Shown piece by piece: positions 115-35,937 of a stretch of DNA of 35,937 nt. The translations under genes were made by a program, and so were the position numbers. The first letter of the stretch is position 1, and each line of letters starts with the position of its first letter. Below the pieces are notes generated by a model, which saw only the letters and a program-made list of their open reading frames with translations, was not told where the DNA came from and ran no database searches. Location of the stretch: positions 1-35,937 of the forward strand of contig JAUYPF010000045.1 in NCBI GenBank assembly GCA_030697685.1, written 5' to 3'. Source of the stretch: a bacterium. GTDB lineage: Archaea; Nanobdellota; Nanobdellia; SCGC-AAA011-G17; GW2011-AR17.

Positions 115-1263
115 ATGAAAAAAAATATACAATCCATAGGAATAAGCCTTCAAAAAGAAAAGGAACTCGCAAAAGAACTTTTTAAGAATCTGGGGATTCC
201 ATCTTTAAAATATGGGCTAGGAATACAAATTATCCTCAATGAATTAGATCTCAATAAAGCACTTGCAAAAGAAAATGAAGAAGAAAGAATGTCTATTGAA
301 GCACCAAAAGAAGTAAAAATTCTCTCACCAACAGAACTATCTAGTGAAGAACAGGAATATTATTGGGAAGGTTTAGTTTCTGCTGACGAAAATAAATTCC
401 TTGCTCTTCATCACGCAATTCTAAATGATGCAAAGATTATTATAATCCCACAAAATGTAAGCTGCAAAGAAGCAATTAGGATTACATCACATTTCTCAAA
501 TAAAGCAAAGGCAGAAAGTATTATTATTATTGCAGAACAGAATTCTTCTGCAAGAATCATTGAAGAAAGCATATCAGAAAACGAGGCATATTACAAAAGT
601 CAAGTCGTACAAATCTATGCCAAAGAAAATGCAATCATAGAATTTTATTCTTTCCAAAACCTCTCTACAGAAACATACAATATGACCATAAAAAGAGGAC
701 GAGCAGAAAGAAACGCAAAAATAAGCTGGTGTGATATTTCTCTAGGAGGAAAATTTACGCAATTACATATACAAACATCCTTACTTTGTCCAAATGCAAA
801 AACTCAAGCAATGGGAGGATACTTTGGAAAAGGAACACAAATATTTGATATTTACAGTGAAGCAACACACAAAGCCTCCGCAACAGAATGTCTACTCTAT
901 AACAAAGGGGTTCTCTGTGATATGGCAAGAACTATAATTAGAGGGAAAATTAGTATTGAAAATGGAAATAGCAAGTGTAAAGCAAAACAAAAATCAGAAA
1001 ACCTCATTGTAGGAGAACATGCACGTTGCGATGCAGTTCCAATGCTTGAGGTAAATAATGATGATGTCACTTGTTCTCATGGCGTTACCATTAGTCATCT
1101 TGATGAAGAAAAGATTTTCTATCTCACAGCAAGAGGTATCGACGAAGAATCAGCAAGAAATATGATCATCTCTGGATTTCTTGATCCAATTATTAATCAA
1201 TTTCCAGAAGAAGCATTTCAAGAAAAAATAAGAGAAAAATTATGGGAAAAAATAACACAATGA
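115..1263 (+). CDS. sufD: SufD-like Fe-S assembly protein
   Basis: This 382-residue protein is the SufB/SufD-type partner of the SufBC2D scaffold. The C-terminal half carries the family's beta-helix core and the recognisable end section, with CSHGVTISHLDEEKIFYLTARGI followed by EESARNMIISGF, including the conserved Cys-Ser-His block near residues 323-325. The N-terminal third is more variable, as usual for SufD. It starts 9 nt after the sufB stop and its TGA stop overlaps the sufS ATG. Known role: with SufB and SufC it accepts sulfur and iron and releases clusters. SufB and SufD are paralogues, but the order B-D-S-U-C supports SufD here. Confidence 0.85.
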   Translation: MKKNIQSIGISLQKEKELAKELFKNLGIPSLKYGLGIQIILNELDLNKALAKENEEERMSIEAPKEVKILSPTELSSEEQEYYWEGLVSADENKFLALHHAILNDAKIIIIPQNVSCKEAIRITSHFSNKAKAESIIIIAEQNSSARIIEESISENEAYYKSQVVQIYAKENAIIEFYSFQNLSTETYNMTIKRGRAERNAKISWCDISLGGKFTQLHIQTSLLCPNAKTQAMGGYFGKGTQIFDIYSEATHKASATECLLYNKGVLCDMARTIIRGKISIENGNSKCKAKQKSENLIVGEHARCDAVPMLEVNNDDVTCSHGVTISHLDEEKIFYLTARGIDEESARNMIISGFLDPIINQFPEEAFQEKIREKLWEKITQ

Positions 1264-2468
1264 AAGACTATAAAGAAGATTTTCCAATACTCAAACAAAA
1301 AGTAAAAGGTAAACCTTTGATTTATTTAGATAATAGTGCAACAACACAAAAACCAAGACAGGTTATTCAAGCAATTACAAACTATTACGAAAAAGATAAT
1401 GCAAATGTACACAGAGGTGTACACGAACTCTCTATGCGTGCAAGCGAAGCATACGAACAGGCACATCAAATAGTTGCAGATTTTATTAACGCACAATTTG
1501 AAGAAATTATTTTCACAAAAGGAACAACAGAAAGTCTCAATCTTTTAGCATATTCATTAGGAAAAAACCTAAAAAAAGATGATGAAATTCTTCTCTCAGA
1601 GATGGAACACCATAGTAATTTTGTTCCATGGCAGCAAATAGCAAAAGAAAAAGGAGCAAAAATAAAACTCATTCCTCTTACTAAAGGATATCGTTTGGAT
1701 ATGAAAGCTGCAGAAAAGCTTATCACTAAAAAAACCAAAATTGTTTCGGTAACACAGTATTCAAATGTTCTTGGAACGATCAATCCTATAAAAATCATAG
1801 CAAAGATGGCACATAAAGTAAATGCAATAGTAATAGTTGATGCTGCACAATCAATTTCTCATATGAAAGTAGATATAAAAGATCTAAACTGTGACTTCCT
1901 CGCATTCTCTGGACATAAAATGTTCGCTCCAACAGGTATTGGTGTACTTTATGGAAAGAAACAACTCCTCGAAAAATTAGAACCATATCAATGTGGTGGT
2001 GGCATGATTCAAGAAGTAACTTTAGAAAAAACAACATGGAATGAACTCCCTTGGAAATTCGAAGCAGGGACTCCAAACATAGAAGGAGCTATTGGTCTTG
2101 CAAAAGCAATAGAATACATTGAAAAAATTGGAAGAGAAAATATAGAAAGATACAATGAAGAATTAACAGGCTACGCACTCAAACAACTCTCTCCAATAAA
2201 AGGTCTCACAATTATTGGTCCAAAAGAAAATAAAGAAAGAGGAGCAGTAATTTCTTTTATACTTGAAGGCTTGCATCCTCATGATGTTGGGGAAATTCTC
2301 AATCAAGAAGGCATTGCTATTCGGGGAGGAAACCATTGTGCCATGCCTCTCATGACAAGTCTAAAGATCAATGGAACAAATCGTGCTTCTTTTCATATTT
2401 ACAACACAAAAGAAGACATAGACAGTTTAATAAAAGCAATAAAAAAAGCACAGGATCTATTCAAATGA
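1260..2468 (+). CDS. sufS: SufS-type cysteine desulfurase
   Basis: A PLP-dependent group II cysteine desulfurase of 402 residues that takes sulfur from cysteine for cluster assembly. The PLP lysine is K220 in SGHKMFAPTGIG. The sulfur-accepting cysteine is C360 in RGGNHCAMPL, the SufS form of the active-site loop. An in-frame ATG exists six codons upstream, but the ATG at 1260 forms an ATGA overlap with the sufD stop, the same junction used three more times in this operon, so I take 1260. It is followed directly by SufU, the usual zinc-dependent sulfur acceptor of SufS in Gram-positive bacteria. A second desulfurase of the IscS/NifS group lies at 22868. Confidence 0.93.
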   Translation: MKDYKEDFPILKQKVKGKPLIYLDNSATTQKPRQVIQAITNYYEKDNANVHRGVHELSMRASEAYEQAHQIVADFINAQFEEIIFTKGTTESLNLLAYSLGKNLKKDDEILLSEMEHHSNFVPWQQIAKEKGAKIKLIPLTKGYRLDMKAAEKLITKKTKIVSVTQYSNVLGTINPIKIIAKMAHKVNAIVIVDAAQSISHMKVDIKDLNCDFLAFSGHKMFAPTGIGVLYGKKQLLEKLEPYQCGGGMIQEVTLEKTTWNELPWKFEAGTPNIEGAIGLAKAIEYIEKIGRENIERYNEELTGYALKQLSPIKGLTIIGPKENKERGAVISFILEGLHPHDVGEILNQEGIAIRGGNHCAMPLMTSLKINGTNRASFHIYNTKEDIDSLIKAIKKAQDLFK

Positions 2469-2896
2469 AAAAAGAAGAGCTCGATAAGATTGATAGAAAT
2501 GAAATTTCTTCTACAACACTCACAGAAGAACAAGAGATGTACAAAGATAATATTATTGATTATTATAAACATCCTAGAAATAAATGTGAATTAAAAGATT
2601 ATACTCATAAACGAAGGGAAATCAATCCTTTATGCGGTGATGATATTACATTGTATTTGAAAATAGAAAAAGGAAAGATAAAAGAAGCAAGTTTTATTGG
2701 CAAAGGTTGTGCAATATCTCAAGCATCTATCTCTCTACTTACAGAAAAGATAAAAGACATGCCTATCAAAAATGCAAAAAAATTACAAAAAGAAGATATA
2801 CTAGAAATATTAGGAATTCCCATTAGTTTTGTGCGTATGAAATGCGCATTACTCTCATTAAAAGTACTAAGCAAAGAACTCGAGGAAATAAAATGA
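2465..2896 (+). CDS. sufU: SufU zinc-dependent sulfurtransferase
   Basis: A 143-residue SufU/IscU-fold protein. The three cysteines and aspartate that bind zinc in SufU are present: C57 and D59 in NPLCGDD, C82 in GKGCAIS and C127 in RMKCALL. The HPRN motif (residues 36-39) is also typical of the family. Its known role is to take persulfide sulfur from SufS C360 through Cys-Zn ligand exchange and pass it to SufB. The start at 2465 overlaps the sufS stop as ATGA. A longer frame reaching upstream would overlap sufS by 130 nt and has no family similarity. The first 25 residues are a charged extension that I cannot match to known SufU. Confidence 0.88.
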   Translation: MKKEELDKIDRNEISSTTLTEEQEMYKDNIIDYYKHPRNKCELKDYTHKRREINPLCGDDITLYLKIEKGKIKEASFIGKGCAISQASISLLTEKIKDMPIKNAKKLQKEDILEILGIPISFVRMKCALLSLKVLSKELEEIK

Positions 2897-3639
2897 AACA
2901 ACTAGAAATTCAAGATCTTCATGTAGAAGTAGATGGAATTGAAATTATTAAAGGAGTAACACTCAACTTTCACTCTGGAAAAGTGCATGCACTCATGGGG
3001 CCAAATGGATCAGGAAAATCAACCCTGGCAAATGCACTCATGGGACATCCAAAGTATAAAATCACAAAAGGAAAAATTATTTTAGATGGAAAAGATATAA
3101 CATATGAAAAAGCAAATATTCGTGCAAAGCTTGGTTTATTCTTATCATTTCAATATCCTGCAGAAATTACTGGAGTAACCATGAATAATTTTTTAAGAAC
3201 TGCAGTAAATAATCAAAGAGAAAAGAAATTTTCCATAGTTGAATTTCACACATTCTTAAAAGAAAAACTAAAAGAATTAAATATGGAATCTTCTTTTATG
3301 AAACGATATATTAACGAGGGTTTTTCAGGTGGAGAAAAGAAAAAAGCAGAGATATTACAATTATCTTTATTAGAACCAAAGTATGCCATTCTTGATGAAG
3401 CAGACAGCGGGGCAGATAGGGATGCATTAAAAATTATTGGAGAAAGTATAAATAGAATAAAACAAAAGAATAGTATGGGAATAATTGTAATAACACACTA
3501 TCAAAAAATGTTACATTATCTTAAAGCAGACCATGTAACGATATTAGTTGAGGGGAAAATTGTCGATACTGGAGATGCAACACTCGCAGAAGAAATCGAA
3601 AAGAATGGATATAACAAATATTTAGGAGAAATAAAATGA
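2893..3639 (+). CDS. sufC: SufC Fe-S assembly ATPase
   Basis: An ABC-type ATPase of 248 residues, the normal SufC length. Visible motifs are Walker A GPNGSGKST (36-44), the Q-loop in LSFQYPAEI, a signature reading FSGGEKKKAE, Walker B plus D-loop ILDEADSGADRDAL, and the switch histidine in ITHYQ. The D-loop has Ala where SufC usually has Leu (DSGLD). It acts in the cytoplasm with SufB/SufD. The ATG at 2893 overlaps the sufU stop as ATGA; the extra upstream codons of the frame lie inside sufU. The stop overlaps the next gene's start in the same way. Confidence 0.95.
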   Translation: MKQLEIQDLHVEVDGIEIIKGVTLNFHSGKVHALMGPNGSGKSTLANALMGHPKYKITKGKIILDGKDITYEKANIRAKLGLFLSFQYPAEITGVTMNNFLRTAVNNQREKKFSIVEFHTFLKEKLKELNMESSFMKRYINEGFSGGEKKKAEILQLSLLEPKYAILDEADSGADRDALKIIGESINRIKQKNSMGIIVITHYQKMLHYLKADHVTILVEGKIVDTGDATLAEEIEKNGYNKYLGEIK

Positions 3640-7772: not shown

Positions 7773-7824
7773 GTATATAAGGTAGTTATTTCTTGGAAAT
7801 TTTACTAAAAAGAGTGAAAAGGAG
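7773..7824 (+). promoter_or_regulatory. TATA box and SD for the candidate diversified protein
   Basis: GTATATAA at 7773-7780 predicts a transcript start near 7803. GGAG at 7821-7824 is 4 nt before the ATG at 7829. A TTG at 7793 in the same frame falls before the predicted transcript start, so the ATG at 7829 is preferred. Confidence 0.55.
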
Positions 7825-7828
7825 AAAA

Positions 7829-8653
7829 ATGGTAGAAACAATCGCAATTCATAGAAGTAAGCCTTTAACTGGTTCACTACATTATGTTCCGGATAAGAAT
7901 CAAGCATTAATCTGTGCTTTGGAGTCTGTATATAACGCTACTGAAGTCCCTTTTGGGAATAGTGGTTTAGGACGACAAAGAGCATTAGGAAATATTGATG
8001 TGTGGGACAATTGGTTTTATGGTTGCCCTCAAGTGCAGGGAAAAGTTGATGATAAAAGCATGTTTTTCTTTGATGATAGAGTGGTTGATGTAGACCATTT
8101 GGAAGATCATCCTTTGTTAAATCCTGTTTTTTTAAGAGACAATTGGTCTGAAATGAAAAATGGCTCTTTACCTGTTTCTCAAGAGTATTTTTCTGCTTTA
8201 GTAGAATTATCTCGTGTTGAAGGCTCTGGAGTTCGTGCACTTTCTCATGCAGATATGGGAAAAATAAATGACTTTTTTGGGCTATCTCAAGCAAAAAGTC
8301 ATGCATATATGAAAGCTTTCTTAGGTCTTTCAGAAGCAGAGAGAGGAGATTATCTTAAAGCACATGAAACCAAGCATGGAAAAAACATTGGGCTTTATTG
8401 TGCTCTACAAGATGCAGAACAAGAAAAAGCGATGGGGCGTTTGTCTGTGTTCGTTAACGGTTACAACCTGGATGGCAGCAGCATTCTAGGCAGCAATTAC
8501 GCGCGTCTGTTAGGGGTACGTCGTCGTGTGGCGAGCGCAGCGAGCTCCAGCGCCAAAGGCGCTCCGCACAAAACTTTAGAAGATGAACTAGTAGGTGCAT
8601 TTCCTGAAATAGATTCAGAAAGACTAAAAGGTATACTTTCTCGATATCAATAA
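7829..8653 (+). CDS. unknown protein with a candidate retroelement-diversified C-terminal region
   Basis: A 274-residue soluble protein that I do not recognise by fold. Residues 1-200 have ordinary AT-rich codons (for example the Trp-rich NIDVWDNWFYGCPQVQG). From A201 to about P253 the codons abruptly become GC-rich and A-poor (8431-8570 is 59% GC by count). Within it, 15 of the 17 codons for F208-Y224 end in C or T and encode residues reachable from AAC or AAT by changing only the adenines. An Arg/Val-rich conserved-looking block follows (LLGVRRRV), then a perfect GC hairpin at 8549-8563. The last 20 residues return to normal composition. This is the layout of a DGR target protein, possibly with a C-type-lectin fold. 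No reverse transcriptase or template repeat is in the window. The diphthine synthase gene starts one base after its stop. Confidence 0.6.
   Translation: MVETIAIHRSKPLTGSLHYVPDKNQALICALESVYNATEVPFGNSGLGRQRALGNIDVWDNWFYGCPQVQGKVDDKSMFFFDDRVVDVDHLEDHPLLNPVFLRDNWSEMKNGSLPVSQEYFSALVELSRVEGSGVRALSHADMGKINDFFGLSQAKSHAYMKAFLGLSEAERGDYLKAHETKHGKNIGLYCALQDAEQEKAMGRLSVFVNGYNLDGSSILGSNYARLLGVRRRVASAASSSAKGAPHKTLEDELVGAFPEIDSERLKGILSRYQ
8429..8548 (+). other. candidate DGR variable region (VR) and IMH-like block
   Basis: About 120 bp of foreign composition inside the host gene: A makes up 20 of 120 bases, against roughly a third around it. Codons 8450-8500 read as NNY except two leucine codons (CTG, CTA), the pattern left when AAY codons of a template repeat are randomised at adenines. 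8501-8548 is nearly free of A in first and second codon positions and would correspond to the constant initiation-of-mutagenic-homing part. No second copy of this block exists in the window, so the assignment rests on composition and layout only. Confidence 0.45.
8549..8563 (+). other. perfect GC hairpin just after the candidate VR
   Basis: AGCGCC-AAA-GGCGCT is a 6-bp perfect inverted repeat with a 3-nt loop lying inside the coding sequence directly behind the GC-rich block. DGR targets commonly have a GC-rich hairpin or cruciform a few bases downstream of the IMH sequence, needed for efficient retrohoming. Here it is translated (SAKGA) without disturbing the frame. Confidence 0.5.
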
Positions 8654-9431: not shown

Positions 9432-10358
9432 ATGCTTATCACAAAAAAACTCTTTGAAAGAATCCAAGAAAAGAAAAAGAAGTTAGAGAAGTTAAGGCCT
9501 TTAGATAAATTCTCCTTAGGAAAATTAAAAGAAGAATTTCTGATAGAATATATTTATAATTCTACATCAATAGAGGGAAATACGCTTTCTCTGAATGAAA
9601 CAAAACTTGTTTTAGAAGAAGGAATCACTATAGGAGGAAAAAGCTTAAGAGAGCACCTAGATGTAACAAATCAAAAAGAAGCATTTACCTGGATAGAAAA
9701 TTGGGTAAAAGAAAAGAAAAACATAAGAGAAGCAGATATTCTAACTTTACACCAAATAACACTCAAGGGTATTTCAGAATATTGGGCAGGAAAATATAAA
9801 ACTTCAGAAAATAGAATTATAGGCTCCAAATTAAAAACAACTGCACCGTATAAAGTCCAATCTGAAATGGGAAATTTAGTCTATAAACTAAATGTAAACC
9901 CTGAAAAATATAATCTTATAGAATTAGCAGCTTTTGCTCATCATGAAATTGCAAAGATTCATCCTTTTGTAGATGGAAATGGAAGAGTAGCAAGGCTTCT
10001 CTGTAATTTGATTTTTATGAAAAAAGGCTACCCTCCAATCATTATTCGAAATAAAGACAGAAAAAAATATTTTGCAAGCCTAGAAAAAGCGCATTTTGGT
10101 GATGTGAGTATTTTTATAAATTTTATTGCAAAAATGGAAGAAGAATCGCTCATACGGTATTTGAATGCTCTAACAAAAACAACTGCAAATAATGAATTAC
10201 TACCTTTAAGTCTTTTAGCAAAAGAAACACCCTACTCACAGGAATATCTCAGTCTTTTGGCACGAAGGTCTATACTCCCTGCAACAAAGATAAATGGTGT
10301 ATGGCATAGCTCTAAGGAAGAAATACAGAAATATCGGATAAAAGGAAAAAATGAATAA
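9432..10358 (+). CDS. Fic-domain AMPylase with N-terminal inhibitory helix and C-terminal HTH
   Basis: A 308-residue Fic protein. The complete active-site motif HPFVDGNGRVAR lies at 177-188, with catalytic H177. The inhibitory motif S-x3-E-G-N is at residues 44-50 (STSIEGN), placing it in the class with an N-terminal alpha-inhibitory helix (like SoFic). Residues about 255-305 look like a helix-turn-helix (SLLAKETPYSQEYLSLLARR) followed by a basic tail. Fic enzymes transfer AMP from ATP to a hydroxyl on a target protein, and the inhibitory glutamate restrains this. The dyads at both ends of the gene fit autoregulation through the HTH domain. The target cannot be predicted. Confidence 0.88.
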   Translation: MLITKKLFERIQEKKKKLEKLRPLDKFSLGKLKEEFLIEYIYNSTSIEGNTLSLNETKLVLEEGITIGGKSLREHLDVTNQKEAFTWIENWVKEKKNIREADILTLHQITLKGISEYWAGKYKTSENRIIGSKLKTTAPYKVQSEMGNLVYKLNVNPEKYNLIELAAFAHHEIAKIHPFVDGNGRVARLLCNLIFMKKGYPPIIIRNKDRKKYFASLEKAHFGDVSIFINFIAKMEEESLIRYLNALTKTTANNELLPLSLLAKETPYSQEYLSLLARRSILPATKINGVWHSSKEEIQKYRIKGKNE

Positions 10359-14950: not shown

Positions 14951-15799
14951 ATGCCTACATTCATAAAGTCCCATGATGGATTAGATATTCATTATGTCTA
15001 CAAGCAAGTAAAATCTTCCAAACCAATAATTCTTTTTTTACATGGTCTAGGTGCAAATTATAGTGAATGGAAACAAACAATGGCACTTGCAAAAAAGAAG
15101 GGTTATAGTACACTTGCAATTGATTTACGTGGGCACGGCCTTTCTTCCACGCCGGAACAATTTGAATTCTATGCTTTAGAGCATTTTGCTGATGATGTAA
15201 AAAAGATCATCACCCATTTAAAGATTAAAAAATTAGTTTTAGTAGGCCATAGTTTTGGGGGTTCTATTGCCATTGTCTATTGTACAAAATATCTTGATTC
15301 CTCACTGCAAAGAATGATTCTTATAGAATCCACACATAAATATCCTTACAAAAAGTATCATGAGTTAAATGTCAATCCCATTTTTTGTTTTTTATTAAGA
15401 AAACTAGTTCAATTAAATATTTTAACAAACAAATCCTTCCCTAAAATTCCAGAATTAAATTTGATAGAATTATACAAAGAGAATATGTTTTTTCAAATTT
15501 ATGATGAATTGTATCACACTCCATTTAAAGTTATTTTTCAATGTTTAGATAAGGCAAAAGATTTTTCTACACAAAAAGAAAGAAAAATCACTTCAACTTT
15601 GCAAAGTATACAATTTCCAACTTTGCTTATTACAGGAACAGAAGATACTATTATTGATAAAGAATATTCCTACAAACTTAAAAATCTTATTCCTAATTCT
15701 AAACTAAAAGTTTTTGAAAAAGCAAGCCATCAGTTTCCTTTAGAAGAGAATCATATCTTAAATAAAGAATTATTTTCTTTTCTTGCAGAGAAAAATTAA
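14951..15799 (+). CDS. alpha/beta hydrolase
   Basis: A 282-residue alpha/beta-hydrolase-fold enzyme. It has the oxyanion HGLG (31-34), the nucleophile elbow GHSFGGS with S101, an acid in LLITGTEDTIID, and the catalytic histidine in KASHQFPLEEN. The cap region is about residues 125-190. The fold includes esterases, lipases and C-C hydrolases, so the substrate is open. No signal peptide. No SD is seen; it follows the small membrane protein by 23 nt. It overlaps the convergent gene by 4 nt. Confidence 0.8.
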   Translation: MPTFIKSHDGLDIHYVYKQVKSSKPIILFLHGLGANYSEWKQTMALAKKKGYSTLAIDLRGHGLSSTPEQFEFYALEHFADDVKKIITHLKIKKLVLVGHSFGGSIAIVYCTKYLDSSLQRMILIESTHKYPYKKYHELNVNPIFCFLLRKLVQLNILTNKSFPKIPELNLIELYKENMFFQIYDELYHTPFKVIFQCLDKAKDFSTQKERKITSTLQSIQFPTLLITGTEDTIIDKEYSYKLKNLIPNSKLKVFEKASHQFPLEENHILNKELFSFLAEKN

Positions 15800-17343
15800 C
15801 GGACAATATATTGGTTTTTAATTTTTCCATCTTGATTCTTAAACATTTTTTCTTGATCAAATGCATAGAGGAATACTTGGGGTTCTAAACATTTCTGATT
15901 TGTTTTATGATTATGATAATATTCAGCATATTCTAAATTCTTTCTTAAAAGTGTATCTAAAATTGCTTTCTCCAAAACTGTTTTAATCTTCGCATTTTTT
16001 TCCACATTTTTCTTAAGTTCAATATACACATGGAAATTTGCATTTTGTTTTGCATCAATATGAGAGGCAAGCATAAATCGATTGACTTTTGCAGAACAAG
16101 AAGAAGTTTGTATCGCAATACCTATTTGTTCAGGATAAATATTGTTTCCTCCTATAGATATAGTTCCATCTGCTCTTCCAACGACAAAAAGAAAAGGAAG
16201 TTTCAGGGTTTTATTCCTCTTAAGAAATGCTTCTAGTTTCTTTTTCTCATGCCCTTTAACAATGTTAAGAAGAGACCCATAAGAAATGCTTCCTCCCTGG
16301 TCATGGAGATTATATTTTATTTTTGGAGAATAGACAGAAGGATCTAAAAGGGTAATAGTAAAGTCCCCTTTTGGAGTATTCTCAATATAGTGCATCAAAG
16401 GATTATATTGAAAGAGAATAGGATTTTCATGCACACTAAAAAGTTCTTTATTTAATTCTGAATTCGTATAAGCAAGTTCTCGAATAAATTCTGAAAAAGG
16501 TGTTTCAAAACCAATTCCTATATCAATATCAGATGCCCCATAGGAAGAAATAATAATTGCATGTGGATTTCCTAATCTTTTTTGAATATATTTCTTCCAT
16601 TCAATAGAACTAGATTCTCCTCCAGTAAGTACATCAATAGCATAATCTTTCCATTGAATTTCTTTCCTATCAAAAAGAATTTTTAAAAATGGAGGGTATC
16701 CTGCAATAAGATAACTATGCTTTGGCCCTAATTGTTTGAGCGTACGCAGAATATTATCAATATCTGCAGTAGTATTTTTGACAAGAGTATAATGTTGAAT
16801 AATTTCACAAAACTTTAAGCCTGTTGCCCATGGACCAGAAGACCAAGCACTTAAAACAATATATTTTTTTTTCTGTGCCTCATAAGTATAAAAAAATTCA
16901 AATTTCGCAACTTTAAACAGGAGATCTTCTTCATCAATTGATCGTATCCAATTTGTAGCTTCTCCACTTGATCCAGAAGATTCTTCAATATTACCTAAAG
17001 AGGGAAAATTTCCTTCTAAACAGCGGCCCTCATAACTATATTTTTCTACATAATTCTTTTTATCTGTTTCAGGAACTTCTTGAATAGAAGAAAAAATCTT
17101 TCCTTTGCTATGTTTTTTATATGCAGGAACATGCCGAGTTGCATAATAATACATTGCCAAAGCCTTTTTTCTGGAAAGTGCTTCTAAAAACGAAGGAGGG
17201 ACATATTCTAAAGCCAAACGTGTAATATGATAACTTTTAAGAAACTGTTTTTCTAAAACTCCTAGCCAAGGAACAACATCAAACTTCTTTTTTCCCATAT
17301 CTTCTTTCAAGGAGCAATAATTATTATAAAGCTTTCTAGACAA
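15796..17343 (-). CDS. adenylate-forming enzyme, phenylacetate-CoA ligase/CapK-like
   Basis: A 515-residue ANL-superfamily enzyme. Core motifs: the phosphate loop ESSGSSGEATNW, then SSYGASDIDIGIG (ATP-binding A5-like), KYNLHDQGG (A7-like aspartate) and GRADGTISIGGNNIYPEQI (A8-like hinge region) before the small C-terminal domain. It resembles PaaK and CapK-type proteins, which activate an acid as an acyl-adenylate. Substrate unknown; capsule or lipid roles are known in relatives. The start is unsure: TTG at 17343 is near the predicted transcript start, and ATG at 17298 is an alternative giving 500 residues. The TATA box at 17374-17385 reads well on both strands. Confidence 0.7.
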   Translation of the reverse strand: MSRKLYNNYCSLKEDMGKKKFDVVPWLGVLEKQFLKSYHITRLALEYVPPSFLEALSRKKALAMYYYATRHVPAYKKHSKGKIFSSIQEVPETDKKNYVEKYSYEGRCLEGNFPSLGNIEESSGSSGEATNWIRSIDEEDLLFKVAKFEFFYTYEAQKKKYIVLSAWSSGPWATGLKFCEIIQHYTLVKNTTADIDNILRTLKQLGPKHSYLIAGYPPFLKILFDRKEIQWKDYAIDVLTGGESSSIEWKKYIQKRLGNPHAIIISSYGASDIDIGIGFETPFSEFIRELAYTNSELNKELFSVHENPILFQYNPLMHYIENTPKGDFTITLLDPSVYSPKIKYNLHDQGGSISYGSLLNIVKGHEKKKLEAFLKRNKTLKLPFLFVVGRADGTISIGGNNIYPEQIGIAIQTSSCSAKVNRFMLASHIDAKQNANFHVYIELKKNVEKNAKIKTVLEKAILDTLLRKNLEYAEYYHNHKTNQKCLEPQVFLYAFDQEKMFKNQDGKIKNQYIVR

Positions 17344-17426: not shown

Positions 17427-18185
17427 ATGTTAAATCCAACAAAACTAATACCACAAATTTGGGGTGAAAACCTGGAAAGAGTAAATAAATTTAGAGAAAA
17501 TGTTTCTGGAGATATTATTTTATGTGTTTCTGATGATCAAAGAGATATTTTAGAAGGTCTTGCAGAAGTAGCACGATTATACAATGGCAGAAATTCTAAT
17601 TCTGAATGGAAAGGAACACTTCCATATATTCTTACTGTAGGCTATTCTGATTCAACTCAGACAAGAGGTATATACGATCAACTTAGAGAAGCAGTAGAAT
17701 ATAATGAAACACATTTTGATGCAGGAAGTTATGAACAAACAAAAATGGTAGAAAGATCTTTAAGGACTCAATTTCAAGAAGCTGGTTTATTAGATAAGAT
17801 AGTGCTTGCGGATAATCTTGCAGCACCAAGGCCAGGAACAAGAATCTACCATGTACAAGATTTGAGAATGGAAGGAGATACTCCTGGGAAAGATATGATT
17901 GGAACTTTCGAAAAAGCTGTAGCAGAAAGACCGGGTTTTTATCCAAATGTTATTTTCATTTGGAGTACTTTATCTGCAGGGCGAGCAGCATTTGCAAGAC
18001 AAATTCCAACAGTAGAGACCGCAGAGCATATAAATATTATTGCAGTTCCAAAACGAGCTGTGGAAGGAAGTTACGGTCTTGGACTTTTAGAAGATCTAAC
18101 AAAAGCATTGACAGGTGATTCAAACTTTCCTGTAGTGAATGCAAAAACATATCGTGGGCAAAAAGTCCATGGTCTTCATTATTAA
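17427..18185 (+). CDS. alpha/beta protein of unknown function
   Basis: A 252-residue soluble protein with alternating hydrophobic strands and helices: SGDIILCVSDDQRDI, LPYILTVGYSDS, NVIFIWSTLSAGRAAFARQI, INIIAVPKRAVEG. This suggests a Rossmann-like or phosphoribosyltransferase-like fold, but no defining motif (such as a PRPP loop) is present, so I assign no function. It has its own promoter and is convergent with the histidine-kinase-like gene, the two stops being 8 nt apart. Confidence 0.55.
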   Translation: MLNPTKLIPQIWGENLERVNKFRENVSGDIILCVSDDQRDILEGLAEVARLYNGRNSNSEWKGTLPYILTVGYSDSTQTRGIYDQLREAVEYNETHFDAGSYEQTKMVERSLRTQFQEAGLLDKIVLADNLAAPRPGTRIYHVQDLRMEGDTPGKDMIGTFEKAVAERPGFYPNVIFIWSTLSAGRAAFARQIPTVETAEHINIIAVPKRAVEGSYGLGLLEDLTKALTGDSNFPVVNAKTYRGQKVHGLHY

Positions 18186-18193
18186 TTATTTTT

Positions 18194-20164
18194 TTAATTT
18201 ATTTTAATTATTTCTTGTGGGAAAATAATTTTTTGTCTAAGATATCTTTCAGAAAAATTTCCTTCAATAACATAAGGCGCTCCAATAATTCGTAATGTAT
18301 CTACGATAAGACGCTGTGCTACACCTCGTTCATTTGTTCTTTTTATATCTCCTTTTGTAGAGAATCCAGTGCCTGGAGCTTGCATGCGCTGGACAATGTC
18401 ATGAACTTGCTCTTCACTTTTCCAAGGAGCAGAATTTTCTATAATCGTAACTATCCCATCAGGCTGTGTTTCTCCTAAAACTCTTAAGTATCCTCCTGGG
18501 ACTTCTGCTGCTGCTTCAAGAGCATTGAGTGTGAGGTTTTCAATAAGCAATTCAAATCGTTTCTGATTTGTTTGAAAAATAATATCAGATGGAATCTGAA
18601 CACTCTGTTGTACTTTTCTTCCAATATAAGTAAACTTTTCTAACGTTCTCTGAAGTAATTCTGCAAAAGAGATTTCTCCAACAATTTTTCCTTTTTCTCC
18701 CAACATCATTCTTCTAATCTCTTTTTCAAGATGTTCAAAATCTTTTTCAAGTTCATCCATACGAGTAATTTCTCTTTCTAAAATATTCACCTCATTCCTA
18801 TCTTCTCTTTGTTGAAGAATTTCTAAAAGAGAATAACTAACAGTACCAATGTTTGCGGGGCCATTTTTTTTAGGATCTTCTAAAAATTTTAAAAATTCAG
18901 GAAGCTCATAACATGCAAGAGCTTCATTTAGTTTAGAAAGTATAGCTTGGTCTTTTACAAATATATCCCTAGCAAAAATATCTAACCATCCTAAATAAGA
19001 AGTATAATTTTTCTGCCGAACACCATTAATTTTATGTCCAAAATCATGAAGTTCTAGTCGAAGAAGTTCTCTAGTCTCTATATCTTCTTGGAGACGCCCG
19101 TACGCTTCAGTAGTTCTATTTTTAAGTTCACTTTTAAGGCCTGTTACAGCTTTTTCTGCCTTATCTCTTCTTTCAGCCTCTTTATCTGCAAGCAATGCCA
19201 TATGCCCAATAGTTTCTCTGCTTTCAAAAATTTCTGCTCGCAAACCAGACAAAAATAACCATACTCTTTGTCTCAAGCCTTCTTTTGCTTCCCAACGTAA
19301 ATCATAAAGGTTTGTTGGCGCTGGATGTTTTCCTCCAAAAAAAACACCTCCTCTGATAAAAGGCACACCTTCACTTTCAAGGGCTCTAGTAGTTTCTACA
19401 ACAAGCAACTCTTCTAGTCCTACTTTTCTTCCACTTTTTGCTTTTTCCAGACTTCCAATAAAATAACTTCCATCCTTCATTTCCCAAAGGGGAGAAGGAA
19501 TTCCTAAAAATGCCAAAGATGTTTGTTGGTAAGGAATAGTTTTTGCAAATAATTTACCTTGGCTATAAAAATTTCCTTCTTCATCCTTTTCCCAAACAAA
19601 TTGTGCTGCATACTGATGTAAAAATATTTCTAATGGCATAGAGAGCATCCTTAATTCTGCTTCAATTTCTTTAAGATTGAAAAGTGGTGCGATACCTTTG
19701 TAATATCCCATTGCTCCAAAAACTTGTTCTGGATAAAAAAACTCTGTTGGTCCTTCAACAGTTTGTTGAATACTTGCACCAGATGCACGAAGGCTGTGTA
19801 CTTTTATTCTAGAGTCATCATTAAGCATTCCACTAAAATATGCAGAAGCTTCAACGACTGCAGGAGCATTTCCAAGAAGTTTCGCAAGCCCACGCACAGG
19901 GCTTTCTTTACTTGTTCCAATAGATTTGTACACAGAAAACAAAAGTTCTGGATTTCTTTCTCCATAGACTTCATAAAATGCATCAATGAGAGTATGATAA
20001 TCTCCATGTGATCTTTTTTTCCTTCCCAACCATTCTTCTTTTATTTTTCCTGAATGTTCGTAAAATTGTTCTTGTTTTTCTGGCGAAAAAGATTCTTCTA
20101 TAAAATCAATAATTACTTTGTACGCATCTCTTGATAAGGAAGGGCTGTGAAGGTTGAATGGCAT
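18194..20164 (-). CDS. soluble histidine-kinase-like sensor protein
   Basis: A 656-residue protein without membrane helices. Residues 1-320 form an unrecognised sensory region. A coiled coil (about 322-370) leads to an H-box-like ELHDFGHKINGVRQ with H373 (or H377). The HATPase region has the N-box LLIENLTLNALEAAAE (N543, N547) and an F/G2-like PGTGFSTKGDIKR followed by GVAQRLIVDTLRIIGA. The G1 box, normally DxGxG, reads IIENSAPW, so nucleotide binding may be altered. No response regulator is encoded nearby. It may phosphorylate a distant partner or act as a GHKL ATPase. CTTTATATATTA at 20185-20195 (minus strand) is a strong TATA box giving a leaderless transcript. Confidence 0.65.
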   Translation of the reverse strand: MPFNLHSPSLSRDAYKVIIDFIEESFSPEKQEQFYEHSGKIKEEWLGRKKRSHGDYHTLIDAFYEVYGERNPELLFSVYKSIGTSKESPVRGLAKLLGNAPAVVEASAYFSGMLNDDSRIKVHSLRASGASIQQTVEGPTEFFYPEQVFGAMGYYKGIAPLFNLKEIEAELRMLSMPLEIFLHQYAAQFVWEKDEEGNFYSQGKLFAKTIPYQQTSLAFLGIPSPLWEMKDGSYFIGSLEKAKSGRKVGLEELLVVETTRALESEGVPFIRGGVFFGGKHPAPTNLYDLRWEAKEGLRQRVWLFLSGLRAEIFESRETIGHMALLADKEAERRDKAEKAVTGLKSELKNRTTEAYGRLQEDIETRELLRLELHDFGHKINGVRQKNYTSYLGWLDIFARDIFVKDQAILSKLNEALACYELPEFLKFLEDPKKNGPANIGTVSYSLLEILQQREDRNEVNILEREITRMDELEKDFEHLEKEIRRMMLGEKGKIVGEISFAELLQRTLEKFTYIGRKVQQSVQIPSDIIFQTNQKRFELLIENLTLNALEAAAEVPGGYLRVLGETQPDGIVTIIENSAPWKSEEQVHDIVQRMQAPGTGFSTKGDIKRTNERGVAQRLIVDTLRIIGAPYVIEGNFSERYLRQKIIFPQEIIKIN

Positions 20165-31007: not shown

Positions 31008-31454
31008 ATGATAAAAATATCCAAAGATACACCCTTAGCAGAACTCACTTTGAGGAAATATGAAAAGCCATATGAGATGTCTAAGAGAGACTTGATGCGA
31101 AAGATTTGTCTTTCCACAGGTTTGTTGCAGCCAGGAGACTCCAGAGATGTTATTGTAGATATTTTTCAAATCCTCCTAGAAAAAAAACAAGAAATGTCTT
31201 GTGATGAAATTCAAGAAGCAGTCATCGCAAAAAGAAAAGAAGAAAAGCTTCCTCTAAATGGTATTGCTGCATCAAATATACGAAGACAAGTAAAACGCCT
31301 CAGAGATATATACTTTGTAGAAAAAGTACGCAACAATTATCGCATCCATGAAAATGAACAATTATCAATATTATTTACAGAAAAAATTGAAAAGTTTTAT
31401 TTAGTGGGAATTGTTTCCAGGGTTAAAGAATATTTACAAGAACTAGAAAAATGA
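31008..31454 (+). CDS. winged-helix transcription-regulator-like protein
   Basis: A 148-residue protein. The N-terminal 40 residues (TPLAELTLRKYEKPYEMSKR) are basic and unassigned. The central part (about 45-115) looks like a winged helix: VIVDIFQILLEKKQEMSCDE, a recognition-helix-like AASNIRRQVKRLRDI, and a wing VEKVRNNYRIHE. The C-terminus is helical. It is probably DNA- or RNA-binding. Its own leader carries the three-hairpin array, so it may control itself through it. It is followed by an ATGA overlap with the methyltransferase gene. The N-terminal conserved-looking block is not one I can name. Confidence 0.6.
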   Translation: MIKISKDTPLAELTLRKYEKPYEMSKRDLMRKICLSTGLLQPGDSRDVIVDIFQILLEKKQEMSCDEIQEAVIAKRKEEKLPLNGIAASNIRRQVKRLRDIYFVEKVRNNYRIHENEQLSILFTEKIEKFYLVGIVSRVKEYLQELEK

Positions 31455-31963
31455 TATACGAACCACGAGAAGATTCAGACCTCTTACAGAAATGGGTAAA
31501 GAAGCTAGTGACTGGAAAAGTCCTTGACATGGGCACTGGCTCTGGCATACAAGCGCTCACAGCCTTAAAGAATACAAAAGATGTTTTAGCAGTAGACATC
31601 AATCCAGAATCTGTAGAGTATGTAAAAAAGAAAGGAGTACATGCTATACAAAGTAACCTCTTCTCCAATGTTCCAGAATCCTTTGATTGGATTATTTTTA
31701 ACCCACCTTACTTGCCAGAAGATTTAGAAGAACCAGAAGATTCCAAGCTTGCAACGACTGGAGGTGTCGAAGGGAATGAAATTCTTATAAACTTTTTACA
31801 ACAAGCAAAAGCACACCTCAATACAAACGGAAAAATTCTCATAGTCATAAGTTCACTCACAGGAGAAACGGAAGAAATTTTTACAGGCTATACATGGAAA
31901 TGTTTAGAAACACAAGAACTATTCTTTGAAGAACTTTCAGTGTATGAATTGATAGCTTTTTAA
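31451..31963 (+). CDS. Mtq2/HemK2-like protein glutamine methyltransferase
   Basis: A 170-residue class I methyltransferase. The N-terminal YEPREDSDLL, the SAM motif VLDMGTGSGIQAL, DVLAVDINPESV, and the catalytic NPPY in IIFNPPYLPED mark the HemK/PrmC-related Mtq2 group. Mtq2 methylates the GGQ glutamine of the release factor (aRF1), usually with Trm112 as partner. The short length without an N-terminal domain fits Mtq2 and not bacterial PrmC. Cotranslated with the winged-helix regulator. Confidence 0.85.
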   Translation: MIYEPREDSDLLQKWVKKLVTGKVLDMGTGSGIQALTALKNTKDVLAVDINPESVEYVKKKGVHAIQSNLFSNVPESFDWIIFNPPYLPEDLEEPEDSKLATTGGVEGNEILINFLQQAKAHLNTNGKILIVISSLTGETEEIFTGYTWKCLETQELFFEELSVYELIAF

Positions 31964-31986: not shown

Positions 31987-33234
31987 ATGCGAAATATAGA
32001 AATTATGTCTCCGGCAGGGAATTGGGAATCCTTGCAAGCAGCGATTCAAGCAGGTTGTAATTCTATCTATTTTGGAGTAGAACAGCTCAATATGCGTGCT
32101 CGCTCAACAAATAATTTCACGATTGATGATCTCAAAAAAATATGTTCACATTGCAAAGAAGCAAAAATAAAATCTTATCTAACATTAAATACTATTTTGT
32201 ATGATCATGATATGCAATTGATGAAAAAAATAATTGATGCAGCAAAAGAAGCAGGAATAACAGCAATTATTATTAGTGATCTTGCAGCTTTACAATATTG
32301 TAAAGAAAAAGGAATAACTTGTCATATAAGCACCCAAGCAAATATATCTAATATCGAAACCATAAAGTTTTTTTCTCTATTCGCAGATGTTATGGTCTTA
32401 GCGCGCGAACTAACGTTACAACAGGTTGCTTCTATAGTAAAAGGCATTGAAGAAGAAAATATTTGTGGTCCTTCTGGTCAGCATGTTCGTATAGAAATCT
32501 TTGCACACGGAGCATTATGTGTTGCAGTTTCTGGTAAATGTTATATGAGCTTGCATACATATAATTCTAGTGCGAATAGAGGTGCTTGTCTTCAAAACTG
32601 TCGAAGAAGTTACATCGTTACGGACAAAGAAACTGGAGAGGAATTAGAAATTGATAATGAATATATCATGTCTCCAAAGGATCTTTGTACAATTGATTTT
32701 CTTGATAAAGTTTTAGCCACAGGCGTAAATGTTTTAAAAATTGAAGGAAGAGCAAGACCTCCAGAATATGTCTATACTGTAACAAAATGTTATCGTGAAG
32801 CTTCTGATGCAGTTCTAAAAGGAGAATATACTCCTGAAAAAATAAAAAAATGGAAAGAAGAACTAAGCACAGTATTTAACAGGGGTCTTTGGGAAGGTTA
32901 TTATCTTGGGAAAAAACTTGGAGAATGGTCTGGAGCCTATGGATCAAAAGCAACAAAGACAAAAATCTATAAGGGCTCAGTAATAAATTGGTATGCGCAG
33001 CCTAAGGTAGCTGCAGTATACTTAGATGCAGGTGATCTTGTTGTTGGTGATGAAATTCTTATTACTGGTGTAACCACGGGTGTTATTCAAACTACTGTAA
33101 ATGGTATATTTCAAGATGAAAAAGCTGCTATTGTTGGCAAACAAAATAATATTGTTACTTTCCCTATAGAACAGAAAGTTAGAGTTAAAGATAAGGTCTA
33201 TGTATTAAAAAGTAAAGAGGATGTGAAAGAATGA
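31987..33234 (+). CDS. U32-family protein, TrhP/RlhA-like RNA hydroxylase
   Basis: A 415-residue U32-family protein. The N-terminal barrel begins IEIMSPAGNWESLQAAIQAG and the domain includes CHISTQANISN. The cysteine cluster typical of U32 proteins is whole: C178 and C185 in HGALCVAVSGKCYMS, C201 and C205 in NRGACLQNCRRSY, and C234 in SPKDLC. The late RARPPEYVYTVTKCYR is also characteristic, and a small C-terminal beta-barrel ends the protein. U32 proteins were first called peptidases, but E. coli TrhP makes 5-hydroxyuridine in tRNA and RlhA makes 5-hydroxycytidine in 23S rRNA. It is close to TrhP in length and arrangement, though it could be RlhA-like or another U32 member. Its stop overlaps the next ATG (ATGA). 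Confidence 0.8.
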   Translation: MRNIEIMSPAGNWESLQAAIQAGCNSIYFGVEQLNMRARSTNNFTIDDLKKICSHCKEAKIKSYLTLNTILYDHDMQLMKKIIDAAKEAGITAIIISDLAALQYCKEKGITCHISTQANISNIETIKFFSLFADVMVLARELTLQQVASIVKGIEEENICGPSGQHVRIEIFAHGALCVAVSGKCYMSLHTYNSSANRGACLQNCRRSYIVTDKETGEELEIDNEYIMSPKDLCTIDFLDKVLATGVNVLKIEGRARPPEYVYTVTKCYREASDAVLKGEYTPEKIKKWKEELSTVFNRGLWEGYYLGKKLGEWSGAYGSKATKTKIYKGSVINWYAQPKVAAVYLDAGDLVVGDEILITGVTTGVIQTTVNGIFQDEKAAIVGKQNNIVTFPIEQKVRVKDKVYVLKSKEDVKE

Positions 33235-33734
33235 TTCTTATTACACATAGGAGAAATGATTGTATAGGCTGCAATTCATGTGTAGAACATGCTCCATTGA
33301 GATGGAGGATGGATGAGCTAGACGGAAAATCTCAACTTATAGGCTCCACAAAAAAAGGAGAACATTTTGTTTTGAAAGTTAGTGATGATGAATTGGAAGC
33401 AAATAAACTTGCGGAACAAGACTGCCCTGTGAATATTATTCATGTGGAAAAGAAAGATTTTTTGAAACAAGAAAGAGAACGTATTGATTGTATAAACAAA
33501 GAAATTCTTCTATTACTAAAAAAAAGAATGCTTGTTGTGGAAAAGATTTTTGAGTATAAAGAAAAGGAATATCTCACGATAGAAGACTTAGAAAGAGAAA
33601 AAGAAATTATAGATCTTGTTAAGAAAGAATCGCAGAAAGAAAGTATTGACACACAGTTTGCACAAGAAATTTTCAAGACAATAATAAATAGTTCAAAATC
33701 TTGGCAGAAAAGAGTTATTGTGAACAAGAAATAA
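33231..33734 (+). CDS. [4Fe-4S] ferredoxin fused to AroQ-type chorismate mutase
   Basis: A 167-residue fusion. Residues 1-72 are a single-cluster ferredoxin: CIGCNSC gives C11, C14, C17, and C65 in DCPVNII is the fourth ligand. Residues 78-161 are an AroQ chorismate mutase that aligns without gaps to E. coli CM; R11, R28, K39, D48, E52, S84 and Q88 correspond to R82, R99, K110, D119, E123, S155 and Q159. It should convert chorismate to prephenate. No dehydratase or dehydrogenase domain follows. Coupled by ATGA to the U32 gene, it appears to supply prephenate and electrons or a cluster to that enzyme. I know of no standard fusion of this kind; it may be rare or limited to a lineage. Confidence 0.88.
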   Translation: MILITHRRNDCIGCNSCVEHAPLRWRMDELDGKSQLIGSTKKGEHFVLKVSDDELEANKLAEQDCPVNIIHVEKKDFLKQERERIDCINKEILLLLKKRMLVVEKIFEYKEKEYLTIEDLEREKEIIDLVKKESQKESIDTQFAQEIFKTIINSSKSWQKRVIVNKK

Positions 33735-33957: not shown

Positions 33958-35937
33958 TTATTCTCTCCAACTTTTTATATTAGTAGTAAGATCTTTTATT
34001 TGAACCTCTAAATCTTCAAGTCTGGCTAATTGAGCAAATTTTTTACCTAAGGATAAATGGCCCTCTGCTAAACTAAAATATCCTCCTATTACATTTTTTT
34101 TAGCTTCTTCAATAGCTATTTGAACAGTATGCCTTGCAAATTCTCTAGGGTCTATACTATTTTTTTTTGCGGTTTCTAATCCAAAAGTGAAATACGTTTC
34201 TGCTGATCCCATAGAAGTTCTTTTTAGGTTTTCACTTGCTTCATAGAATATTAGTTTTACAATTGGTTTAACATATGGTTTTACATCAATATCTTGCTCT
34301 TGTGCAATTTTATTTGCCCAATTAATTTCTGTATCTGCAAGATCTCGGTACCCATACTTTAGACTGCTTTGTGCTGATGTATATATTACTTTTACAACCT
34401 CTGTGGCATATTCTTTTACATCAATATCTTGCTTTTGTGCAATTCGATTTGCCAAATTCATCTCTTTTTCAACGAGGATTTTATAACTATAACCCAATTT
34501 TACATATTTCCTTGCTTGCTTATAAGATTTATTTACCATATTTCGTGCAAAAATATAATTAGGATCTCCCTCTTTTAAAGCAAGAGCTTGTGCTTTTCTT
34601 CTAGAATTCCATTTTTTCACACAAGATGATGCTCTTTCTAGATTTTGTGTAATACAAAATTCATATCCTGTTTTTTTGTGTGTGACAAGAATAAGTCTTT
34701 CATAGTTTCCATTTACATGTTCACAAGAATTCCAAGCTAAAGTGTAGTCTTCAAATTCTGGTGCTGCAAAAGAGATTTTAGAATTTGCAGGGTTTTCTTC
34801 AAGAAGCTTTTCTAAATCATAACTATATCTCACTCCATTTGTTTCTCTAACAAAAAGCTCATCTCCATAGTATGCAGCTTGAACAATATCATAAAGTTTT
34901 GTGAAATTAAATTGTGATGAAACATGGGATTCTGGTATTTTCTGAAATTCTTCTCCTAGAAGAACAGAACCTAATGTAAAAGAGATTTTACCTTCTTTTA
35001 AATCAATTTTTACAGTTGGAGGATCTTGAAAATGAAATGTATAAGGCATATTTTGACTAATTCTTCTAGTAGCAACAATAGGAATAGAACATTCAAGTCT
35101 CTCTTGTAGATCCCGTTCAATAGTCTCAATGTCTAGTAAGAAATATACTGTTCCAAAATCAGATACTTGTTCACCAATTAAATCTGTAACACCTCCATTT
35201 TTACCTATTTTTTGGTATGCTCTATCTACAACAGGAAGATGTAAAGCCTCAAATAGATCTTTAGTTATATCTTTAAGTGTAACACCAGATTTGTAAGCAG
35301 CACTGTGGAAGGAATATAAATTTCTTGAGATCTCCTGTAAAATTATATTTGAAATTTCTCTTGCATTTTCTCTTAGATGAGTTTCTTCCTGAGGAGATTT
35401 TATATTTTTGTAAGCTTGATTAAATTGAGACAAATTATCCTCAATGAGTGATAAAGCATGTAAAATTTCTACAGGATTTGGCATTTGTTTTCTGTTCTCA
35501 GGATCTATAAATAAATCTAAAACATCAGTTTTAAGAACTCTACAGAGCCGTACCATTCGTTCATAATTATCTGTGGCATTAGAAATAGGCAGAACACTAA
35601 AAAAATCGGCCTTAAATGCATCAGTACCTTCTCCTCTTTCTTTTCCATAAGGAATATTTGGAAAGAATAACCATAATTTATCTATCTCTTTCTTTAATCC
35701 TTGATAAGGAACATAAGCCAAATCAGAACAATCTCTTCTAAGCTCTTCATATTTAGAAGATTCAGAAAGTTCTTTGAGGAACTCGGGTTCATGTAAGACA
35801 ATAAACTCAAGAGCTTCATATACTTCTTCTTGGCTTCTTTTCTTATTACTTTTTCTATTTCTTCCTGCAGCGATAAAATCAAATTTCCTTTTTCTGAGAT
35901 TTGGAAGATAGACAGCATCGTATTCTTTTATACCTTG
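33958..35937 (-). CDS. large protein with C-terminal helical repeats, 5' end outside the window
   Basis: The frame stays open to the last base of the window, giving at least 659 residues; an apparent TTG start at 35721 is internal because coding-quality sequence (YEALEFIVLHEPEFLKELSE) continues before it. No family recognised. The C-terminal 200 residues contain about four repeats of 36-42 residues with the pattern A-(x)n-GY...LA..E...A.KIAQ.Q.IDV..Y...VVK, for example NLANRIAQKQDIDVKEYATE and NWANKIAQEQDIDVKPYVKP, an alpha-solenoid or TPR-like scaffold. No signal peptide or membrane helix in the visible part. It may be a protein-interaction protein. Confidence 0.65.
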   Translation of the reverse strand, partial: QGIKEYDAVYLPNLRKRKFDFIAAGRNRKSNKKRSQEEVYEALEFIVLHEPEFLKELSESSKYEELRRDCSDLAYVPYQGLKKEIDKLWLFFPNIPYGKERGEGTDAFKADFFSVLPISNATDNYERMVRLCRVLKTDVLDLFIDPENRKQMPNPVEILHALSLIEDNLSQFNQAYKNIKSPQEETHLRENAREISNIILQEISRNLYSFHSAAYKSGVTLKDITKDLFEALHLPVVDRAYQKIGKNGGVTDLIGEQVSDFGTVYFLLDIETIERDLQERLECSIPIVATRRISQNMPYTFHFQDPPTVKIDLKEGKISFTLGSVLLGEEFQKIPESHVSSQFNFTKLYDIVQAAYYGDELFVRETNGVRYSYDLEKLLEENPANSKISFAAPEFEDYTLAWNSCEHVNGNYERLILVTHKKTGYEFCITQNLERASSCVKKWNSRRKAQALALKEGDPNYIFARNMVNKSYKQARKYVKLGYSYKILVEKEMNLANRIAQKQDIDVKEYATEVVKVIYTSAQSSLKYGYRDLADTEINWANKIAQEQDIDVKPYVKPIVKLIFYEASENLKRTSMGSAETYFTFGLETAKKNSIDPREFARHTVQIAIEEAKKNVIGGYFSLAEGHLSLGKKFAQLARLEDLEVQIKDLTTNIKSWRE

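Follow-up and report, generated by a model that had tools for sequence, protein, structure and literature searches.

In Escherichia coli the U32 proteins TrhP and RlhA require prephenate, and mutants of conserved TrhP residues do not restore the modification (Sakai et al., PMC6599085); TrhP holds a [4Fe-4S] cluster (PMC11138216). Prephenate has also been reported as the oxygen source in anaerobic ubiquinone synthesis (PMC11574389), and hydroxylation of a ubiquinone precursor is carried out by two further U32 proteins, UbiU and UbiV (PMC6747719, PMC10470549). According to a 2024 review, it has yet to be shown exactly how prephenate is transformed and what the Fe-S cluster does, and catalysis has yet to be demonstrated directly (PMC11574389). 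In a review of 2020, ho5C is listed for bacteria and ho5U for both bacteria and eukaryotes, while neither is listed for archaea (PMC7694415). A survey of archaeal gene fusions names chorismate mutase (CM) only with PheA/TyrA-type partners (PMC11237513). In a literature search that covered few subscription journals, we found no published description of a linkage between U32, ferredoxin and CM genes; the one paper that mentions both chorismate mutase and peptidase U32 is that on E. coli TrhP.

Such a linkage is found in the stretch of DNA analysed here (referred to as the window), which comprises 35,937 nucleotides and corresponds to contig C47 of an archaeal assembly of 1.07 Mb in 65 contigs, with a completeness of 92%. 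The U32 gene and its partner sit at the right end of the window, and the features to be discussed are as follows:

31451-31963, + strand: protein methyltransferase of the HemK2/MTQ2 type (TIGR00537, 111.2 bits, cut-off 87)
31987-33234, + strand: U32 oxidase-type protein of 415 aa (open reading frame, PF01136)
33231-33734, + strand: ferredoxin–CM fusion of 167 aa (open reading frame, Pfam)
33231-33458, + strand: ferredoxin domain of the fusion, single [4Fe-4S] type (PF13459, PF13370)
33462-33710, + strand: AroQ (CM_2) CM domain of the fusion (PF01817, residues, fold)

Both reading frames, and the ATGA in which the U32 stop and the fusion start overlap, were found exactly where the initial annotation had placed them; we propose that the ferredoxin half is translationally coupled to U32. 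Our preferred reading, to which we give a probability of about 0.6, is that the two genes form a unit consisting of an O2-independent U32 hydroxylase with a dedicated supply of prephenate and electrons, probably acting on RNA. We infer that the CM is active in vivo, that prephenate is the donor, that electrons are transferred and that RNA is the substrate: the CM half would turn chorismate obtained from outside the cell into prephenate; the U32 protein, its four cysteines carrying a [4Fe-4S] cluster, would use this prephenate as oxygen donor and hydroxylate its substrate, most likely an RNA pyrimidine; and the ferredoxin half would give or relay electrons to the U32 protein. The ferredoxin is a candidate electron partner for U32 enzymes, and donor synthesis, ferredoxin and hydroxylase encoded by two adjacent genes would provide a compact system for reconstitution.

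The HemK2/MTQ2-type gene ends 23 bp upstream of the U32 gene and is possibly co-transcribed with it; no relative of this gene was found beside U32 in related loci, and it is therefore probably outside the module. A frameshift error as the origin of the fusion is unlikely, the frame being clean and the other two frames containing 17 and 14 stops. An assembly error may possibly lie behind the fused form, and CM may also be made separately from internal GTG/TTG codons of the fusion gene. At the other end of the window (115-3639) lies a SUF-type Fe-S assembly operon encoding a SufB/D core, a class-V aminotransferase (SufS-like), a NifU-like scaffold and an ABC ATPase (SufC-like); with this operon the organism is probably able to build Fe-S clusters itself. 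The window further encodes a Fic/DOC family protein (9432-10358), and five of its sizeable reading frames have no Pfam match at 1e-5 (7793-8653, 15796-17343, 17427-18185, 18194-20164 and 33958-35721).

The U32 protein matches PF01136 with E=2.1e-66 (224 bits, cut-off 22.4). The cysteine set that had been claimed for it is complete, with four members (C178, C185, C201 and C205); they form the arrangement CX6CX15CX3C, which is the motif of U32 oxidases (PMC11574389), and E170 and H174 are found as well. These residues align, the cysteines first, with C170, C177, C193, C197, E162 and H166 of E. coli TrhP. The protein thus resembles E. coli TrhP (YegQ) and Bacillus subtilis TrhP1/TrhP2 (YrrO/YrrN), which act on tRNA U34, in its PF01136 core, its four-cysteine motif and its essential Glu, and shares with TrhP a C-terminal barrel similar to the one in a U32 protein of Geobacillus. 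The operon logic is also reminiscent of B. subtilis, where yrrN and yrrO lie with a partner gene; unlike in the TrhP systems, however, the window protein is archaeal, and its linked genes are those of ferredoxin and CM in place of a methyltransferase such as YrrM. In the predicted structure (model pLDDT 80.6) a barrel is followed by a C-terminal beta domain, with residues 175-209 at pLDDT <50, too low to judge cluster geometry. Foldseek retrieved many barrels, one of which was the U32 structure 5d88, as well as EF-Tu structures, and matched the C-terminal beta barrel (about residues 320-410) to 4he6, the C-terminal domain of the Geobacillus U32 protein (TMt 0.83, 1.1 A, 81 columns). Initially described as TrhP/RlhA-like, the protein merits this name at the level of the superfamily but not at that of the TrhP family, since it scores 163.8 bits against an equivalog cut-off of 534 (NF011996), E. 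coli TrhP itself reaching 875; it is likewise below the UbiU equivalog cut-off (NF047963, 161.2 vs 440 bits). Among the four E. coli U32 proteins, RlhA (23S rRNA C2501) is the best by BLAST, with 31% identity over 327 residues, and the window protein has the SANRG-x-C-x3-C motif in common with it. It differs from RlhA in that, with 415 aa against 653, it does not have the full-length architecture, the similarity stopping at about RlhA residue 313; nor are there ferredoxin or CM partner genes beside E. coli rlhA.

With identities of 30% to UbiU, 31% to RlhA and 27% to TrhP, the protein is about equally near to all three, and it might be a prephenate-dependent hydroxylase of a small molecule or a protein instead of RNA, as UbiU and UbiV are for a quinone precursor. 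Those two belong to the same U32 fold family, hold [4Fe-4S] clusters and are linked to prephenate. We nevertheless consider a substrate of this kind quite unlikely. H174 and C205 are common to TrhP and RlhA, whereas neither this histidine nor the fourth cysteine position is found in UbiU and UbiV (F165 and R197 in UbiU); the C-terminal barrel is like that of the Geobacillus protein, and EF-Tu structures were matched too; and co-occurrence of UbiT, UbiU and UbiV is limited to proteobacteria (PMC6747719), UbiU working as a pair with UbiV, plus UbiT, unlike the window protein. RNA is the favoured substrate because of the features common to TrhP and RlhA together with the C-terminal barrel, and the barrel may slightly favour tRNA over rRNA.

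In the fusion, the ferredoxin claimed in the initial annotation was confirmed by matches to PF13459 and PF13370, both above the gathering cut-off, and by all four of its cysteines, C11, C14, C17 and C65 (CxxCxxC...CP pattern), which are invariant in 79/79 ferredoxins at U32 loci. Judged by its sequence, this N-terminal part belongs to the single-cluster [4Fe-4S] ferredoxin class. The CM part matches PF01817 with E=5.9e-19 (68.5 bits, cut-off 27) and has R82, R99, K110, D119, R122, E123, S155 and Q159 at the positions of E. coli R11, R28, K39, D48, R51, E52, S84 and Q88, that is eight AroQ active-site residues where seven had been counted. It is below the cut-off of the archaeal chorismate mutase equivalog TIGR01791 (50.7 bits, cut-off 66.95). 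Over 88 residues the modelled CM domain superposes on 1ECM, the E. coli chorismate mutase, at 0.9-1.0 A (Foldseek TMt 0.93). This model of the fusion was built on a CM-only alignment, so its first 21 ferredoxin residues have low confidence; a mixed ferredoxin and CM alignment (A2) was dropped, as the two domains were misaligned. The CM fold and residues are the same as in the known AroQ fusions (PheA, TyrA, DAHP synthase-CM), but in these CM is joined to enzymes of aromatic amino acid synthesis, while that of the window is joined to a ferredoxin beside U32.

The fusion contains the only CM_2 match of the assembly. No match to prephenate dehydratase (PDT), to the PDH_C domain of prephenate dehydrogenase or to chorismate synthase was found in this 92%-complete assembly, which verifies the predicted lack of Phe/Tyr genes and of chorismate synthase. 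Each of these absences taken singly is weak evidence at this completeness; the same pattern is seen in all relatives that share the layout. As the assembly lacks chorismate synthase, chorismate must come from outside the cell. Among the 281 genomes of the class, chorismate synthase occurs in six.

A second ferredoxin–CM fusion was found neither in the 281 class genomes nor in 18 family and 103 order genomes. The fused form thus being found in the window genome alone, the case rests on neighbouring genes. CM is present in 51 class genomes and is accompanied by U32 in 39 of them; in 12 of the 39 (12/51 CM genomes) the two genes are neighbours, about 1 kb apart or less (criterion 1.5 kb). These 12 genomes span nine genera and six families, and a ferredoxin (Fd) gene is usually close. 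The arrangements are:

U32-CM-Fd: G172, G212, G159
U32-Fd-CM: G273, and in fused form G000
CM divergent from U32-Fd: G210
Fd-CM-U32: G185
CM-U32 with overlapping ends: G043, G098
Fd-CM-one gene-U32: G107
CM near and convergent to U32: G191, G244

Such varied gene orders with the same content disfavour the simple inheritance of a single arrangement. By chance this proximity would have a naive binomial p of about 5e-17, a value that ignores relatedness; kinship inflates all the p-values given here. PDT, PDH_C and chorismate synthase are found in none of the 12 genomes, against 16 with PDT or PDH_C among the remaining 39 CM genomes (p=0.01; PDH_C was searched for in the 51 CM genomes). U32 is carried by 32 of the 35 CM genomes without PDT/PDH_C, compared with 72 of 230 genomes without CM (p=8e-12, kinship ignored), and by 7 of the 16 CM genomes with PDT or PDH_C. 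The window's own family offers a contrast case, G088 and G121, which have no U32 and in which CM is next to PDH_C. The fusion is unique among the genomes searched, but its counterpart in separate genes, CM near U32, does recur in 12 of 51 CM genomes, and PheA/TyrA-type enzymes are absent there. The presence of CM beside U32 and ferredoxin, with the downstream prephenate enzymes missing, is independent comparative evidence for prephenate as the relevant metabolite.

An ordinary role of this CM in Phe/Tyr synthesis or another chorismate route, its proximity to U32 reflecting shared regulation or chance, seems to us very unlikely, given that PDT and PDH_C are absent from all 12 clustered genomes and that the clustering recurs in differing orders across nine genera. 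In favour of such a role, chorismate synthase is missing in some class genomes that keep PDT or PDH_C, so that salvage of intermediates may exist, and one non-adjacent CM is fused to DAHP synthase; this fusion, and one further case of a DAHP synthase near CM, are among the 35 CM genomes without PDT/PDH_C. The genes around non-adjacent CMs show no single theme. Three of these CM genes (L291, L298 and L304, in G131, G266 and G163) adjoin a gene for a PfkB-family kinase. CM is missing in 72 of the 111 class genomes with U32; in such genomes a private CM may be unneeded, prephenate may be imported, or other donors may be used. Beyond the two-gene unit itself, we put forward tentatively, at somewhat less than even odds, that in host-dependent archaea of the Woesearchaeota type CM has left amino-acid synthesis and is now committed to a machine of U32, ferredoxin and CM that hydroxylates RNA, with chorismate provided by another organism. 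If true, prephenate-dependent RNA hydroxylation would thereby extend to Archaea.

In E. coli chorismate mutase, Gln88 has an important role in catalysis. Its equivalent is absent in 10 of the 12 archaeal CMs adjacent to U32 (L095-L105 compared with window 33462-33710), in several cases through a shortened C-terminus, and this count is least secure where such short C-termini had to be aligned. By contrast, Gln or Glu occupies position 88 in 14/14 CMs that could be assessed in genomes with PDT or PDH_C, a significant difference (Fisher p=2e-5, run with 13 of the 14). R11, R28, K39, R51 and E52 are kept in nearly all the U32-adjacent CMs, the partial match of G273 beginning after position 11. Taken together, the loss of Gln88 and the retention of the other five residues would fit a linked CM that is mainly a chorismate- or prephenate-binding subunit, delivering, holding or sensing the donor for U32. 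Against this, the CMs of the window and of G210 retain Gln88, and that of the window retains all eight residues; we hold this explanation to be unlikely as a general one, although CM may have turned into a donor-binding subunit in some lineages. To judge from their sequences, the linked CMs without Gln88 in some relatives may work slowly, may rely on a different residue, or may bind without converting. The dedicated supply of prephenate by an active CM remains our preferred reading. The view expressed in the initial annotation, that CM here serves RNA modification, gains from the recurrent clustering of CM, U32 and ferredoxin, from the lack of PheA/TyrA-type enzymes and from the presence of U32 in 32/35 genomes, and is weakened by the frequent loss of Gln88 in linked CMs. 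The term self-contained fits poorly, as chorismate is external, the fusion is known from one genome, 72/111 U32 genomes have no CM and 10/12 linked CMs lack Gln88.

The pairing of U32 with ferredoxin extends further than that with CM. Of 98 archaeal U32 loci, 26 have such a pair (<=1.5 kb), as have 54 of the best 80 loci in genome_contigs; 79 of those 80 are titled bacterial, mostly Bacteroidota; these bacterial loci were chosen by similarity, so their frequencies describe a non-random sample. In a quick tree, a single clade (SH-aLRT 95) contains all CM-adjacent U32s and most of the ferredoxin-linked U32s, and bacterial sequences are nested among archaeal ones, which suggests transfer of the U32 gene across domains, in either direction. 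E. coli TrhP, RlhA and UbiU are on long branches, and subfamily assignment from this tree was discarded. U32s of Bacteroidota, Ignavibacteriae and Patescibacteria (L116-L195) are 56-64% identical to the archaeal U32, mostly with the same ferredoxin. In Patescibacteria, no CM was found beside U32 among the CM places examined (30 of 36 with flanks up to 1.5 kb, the other six being in genomes without a U32 match); co-occurrence of CM and U32 (20/35 vs 2/19, a small, non-random comparison) is suggestive only. Among Bacteroidota loci, L122 has the consecutive genes CM, U32 and ferredoxin, the second CM of that genome being inside a 389-aa frame. Another Bacteroidota locus, L150, was not counted as support: its CM is within a divergent frame of 246 aa and is not a stand-alone CM. 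In the genus of the window, G210 has two U32-ferredoxin pairs (L077 and L214), one of them with a divergent CM.
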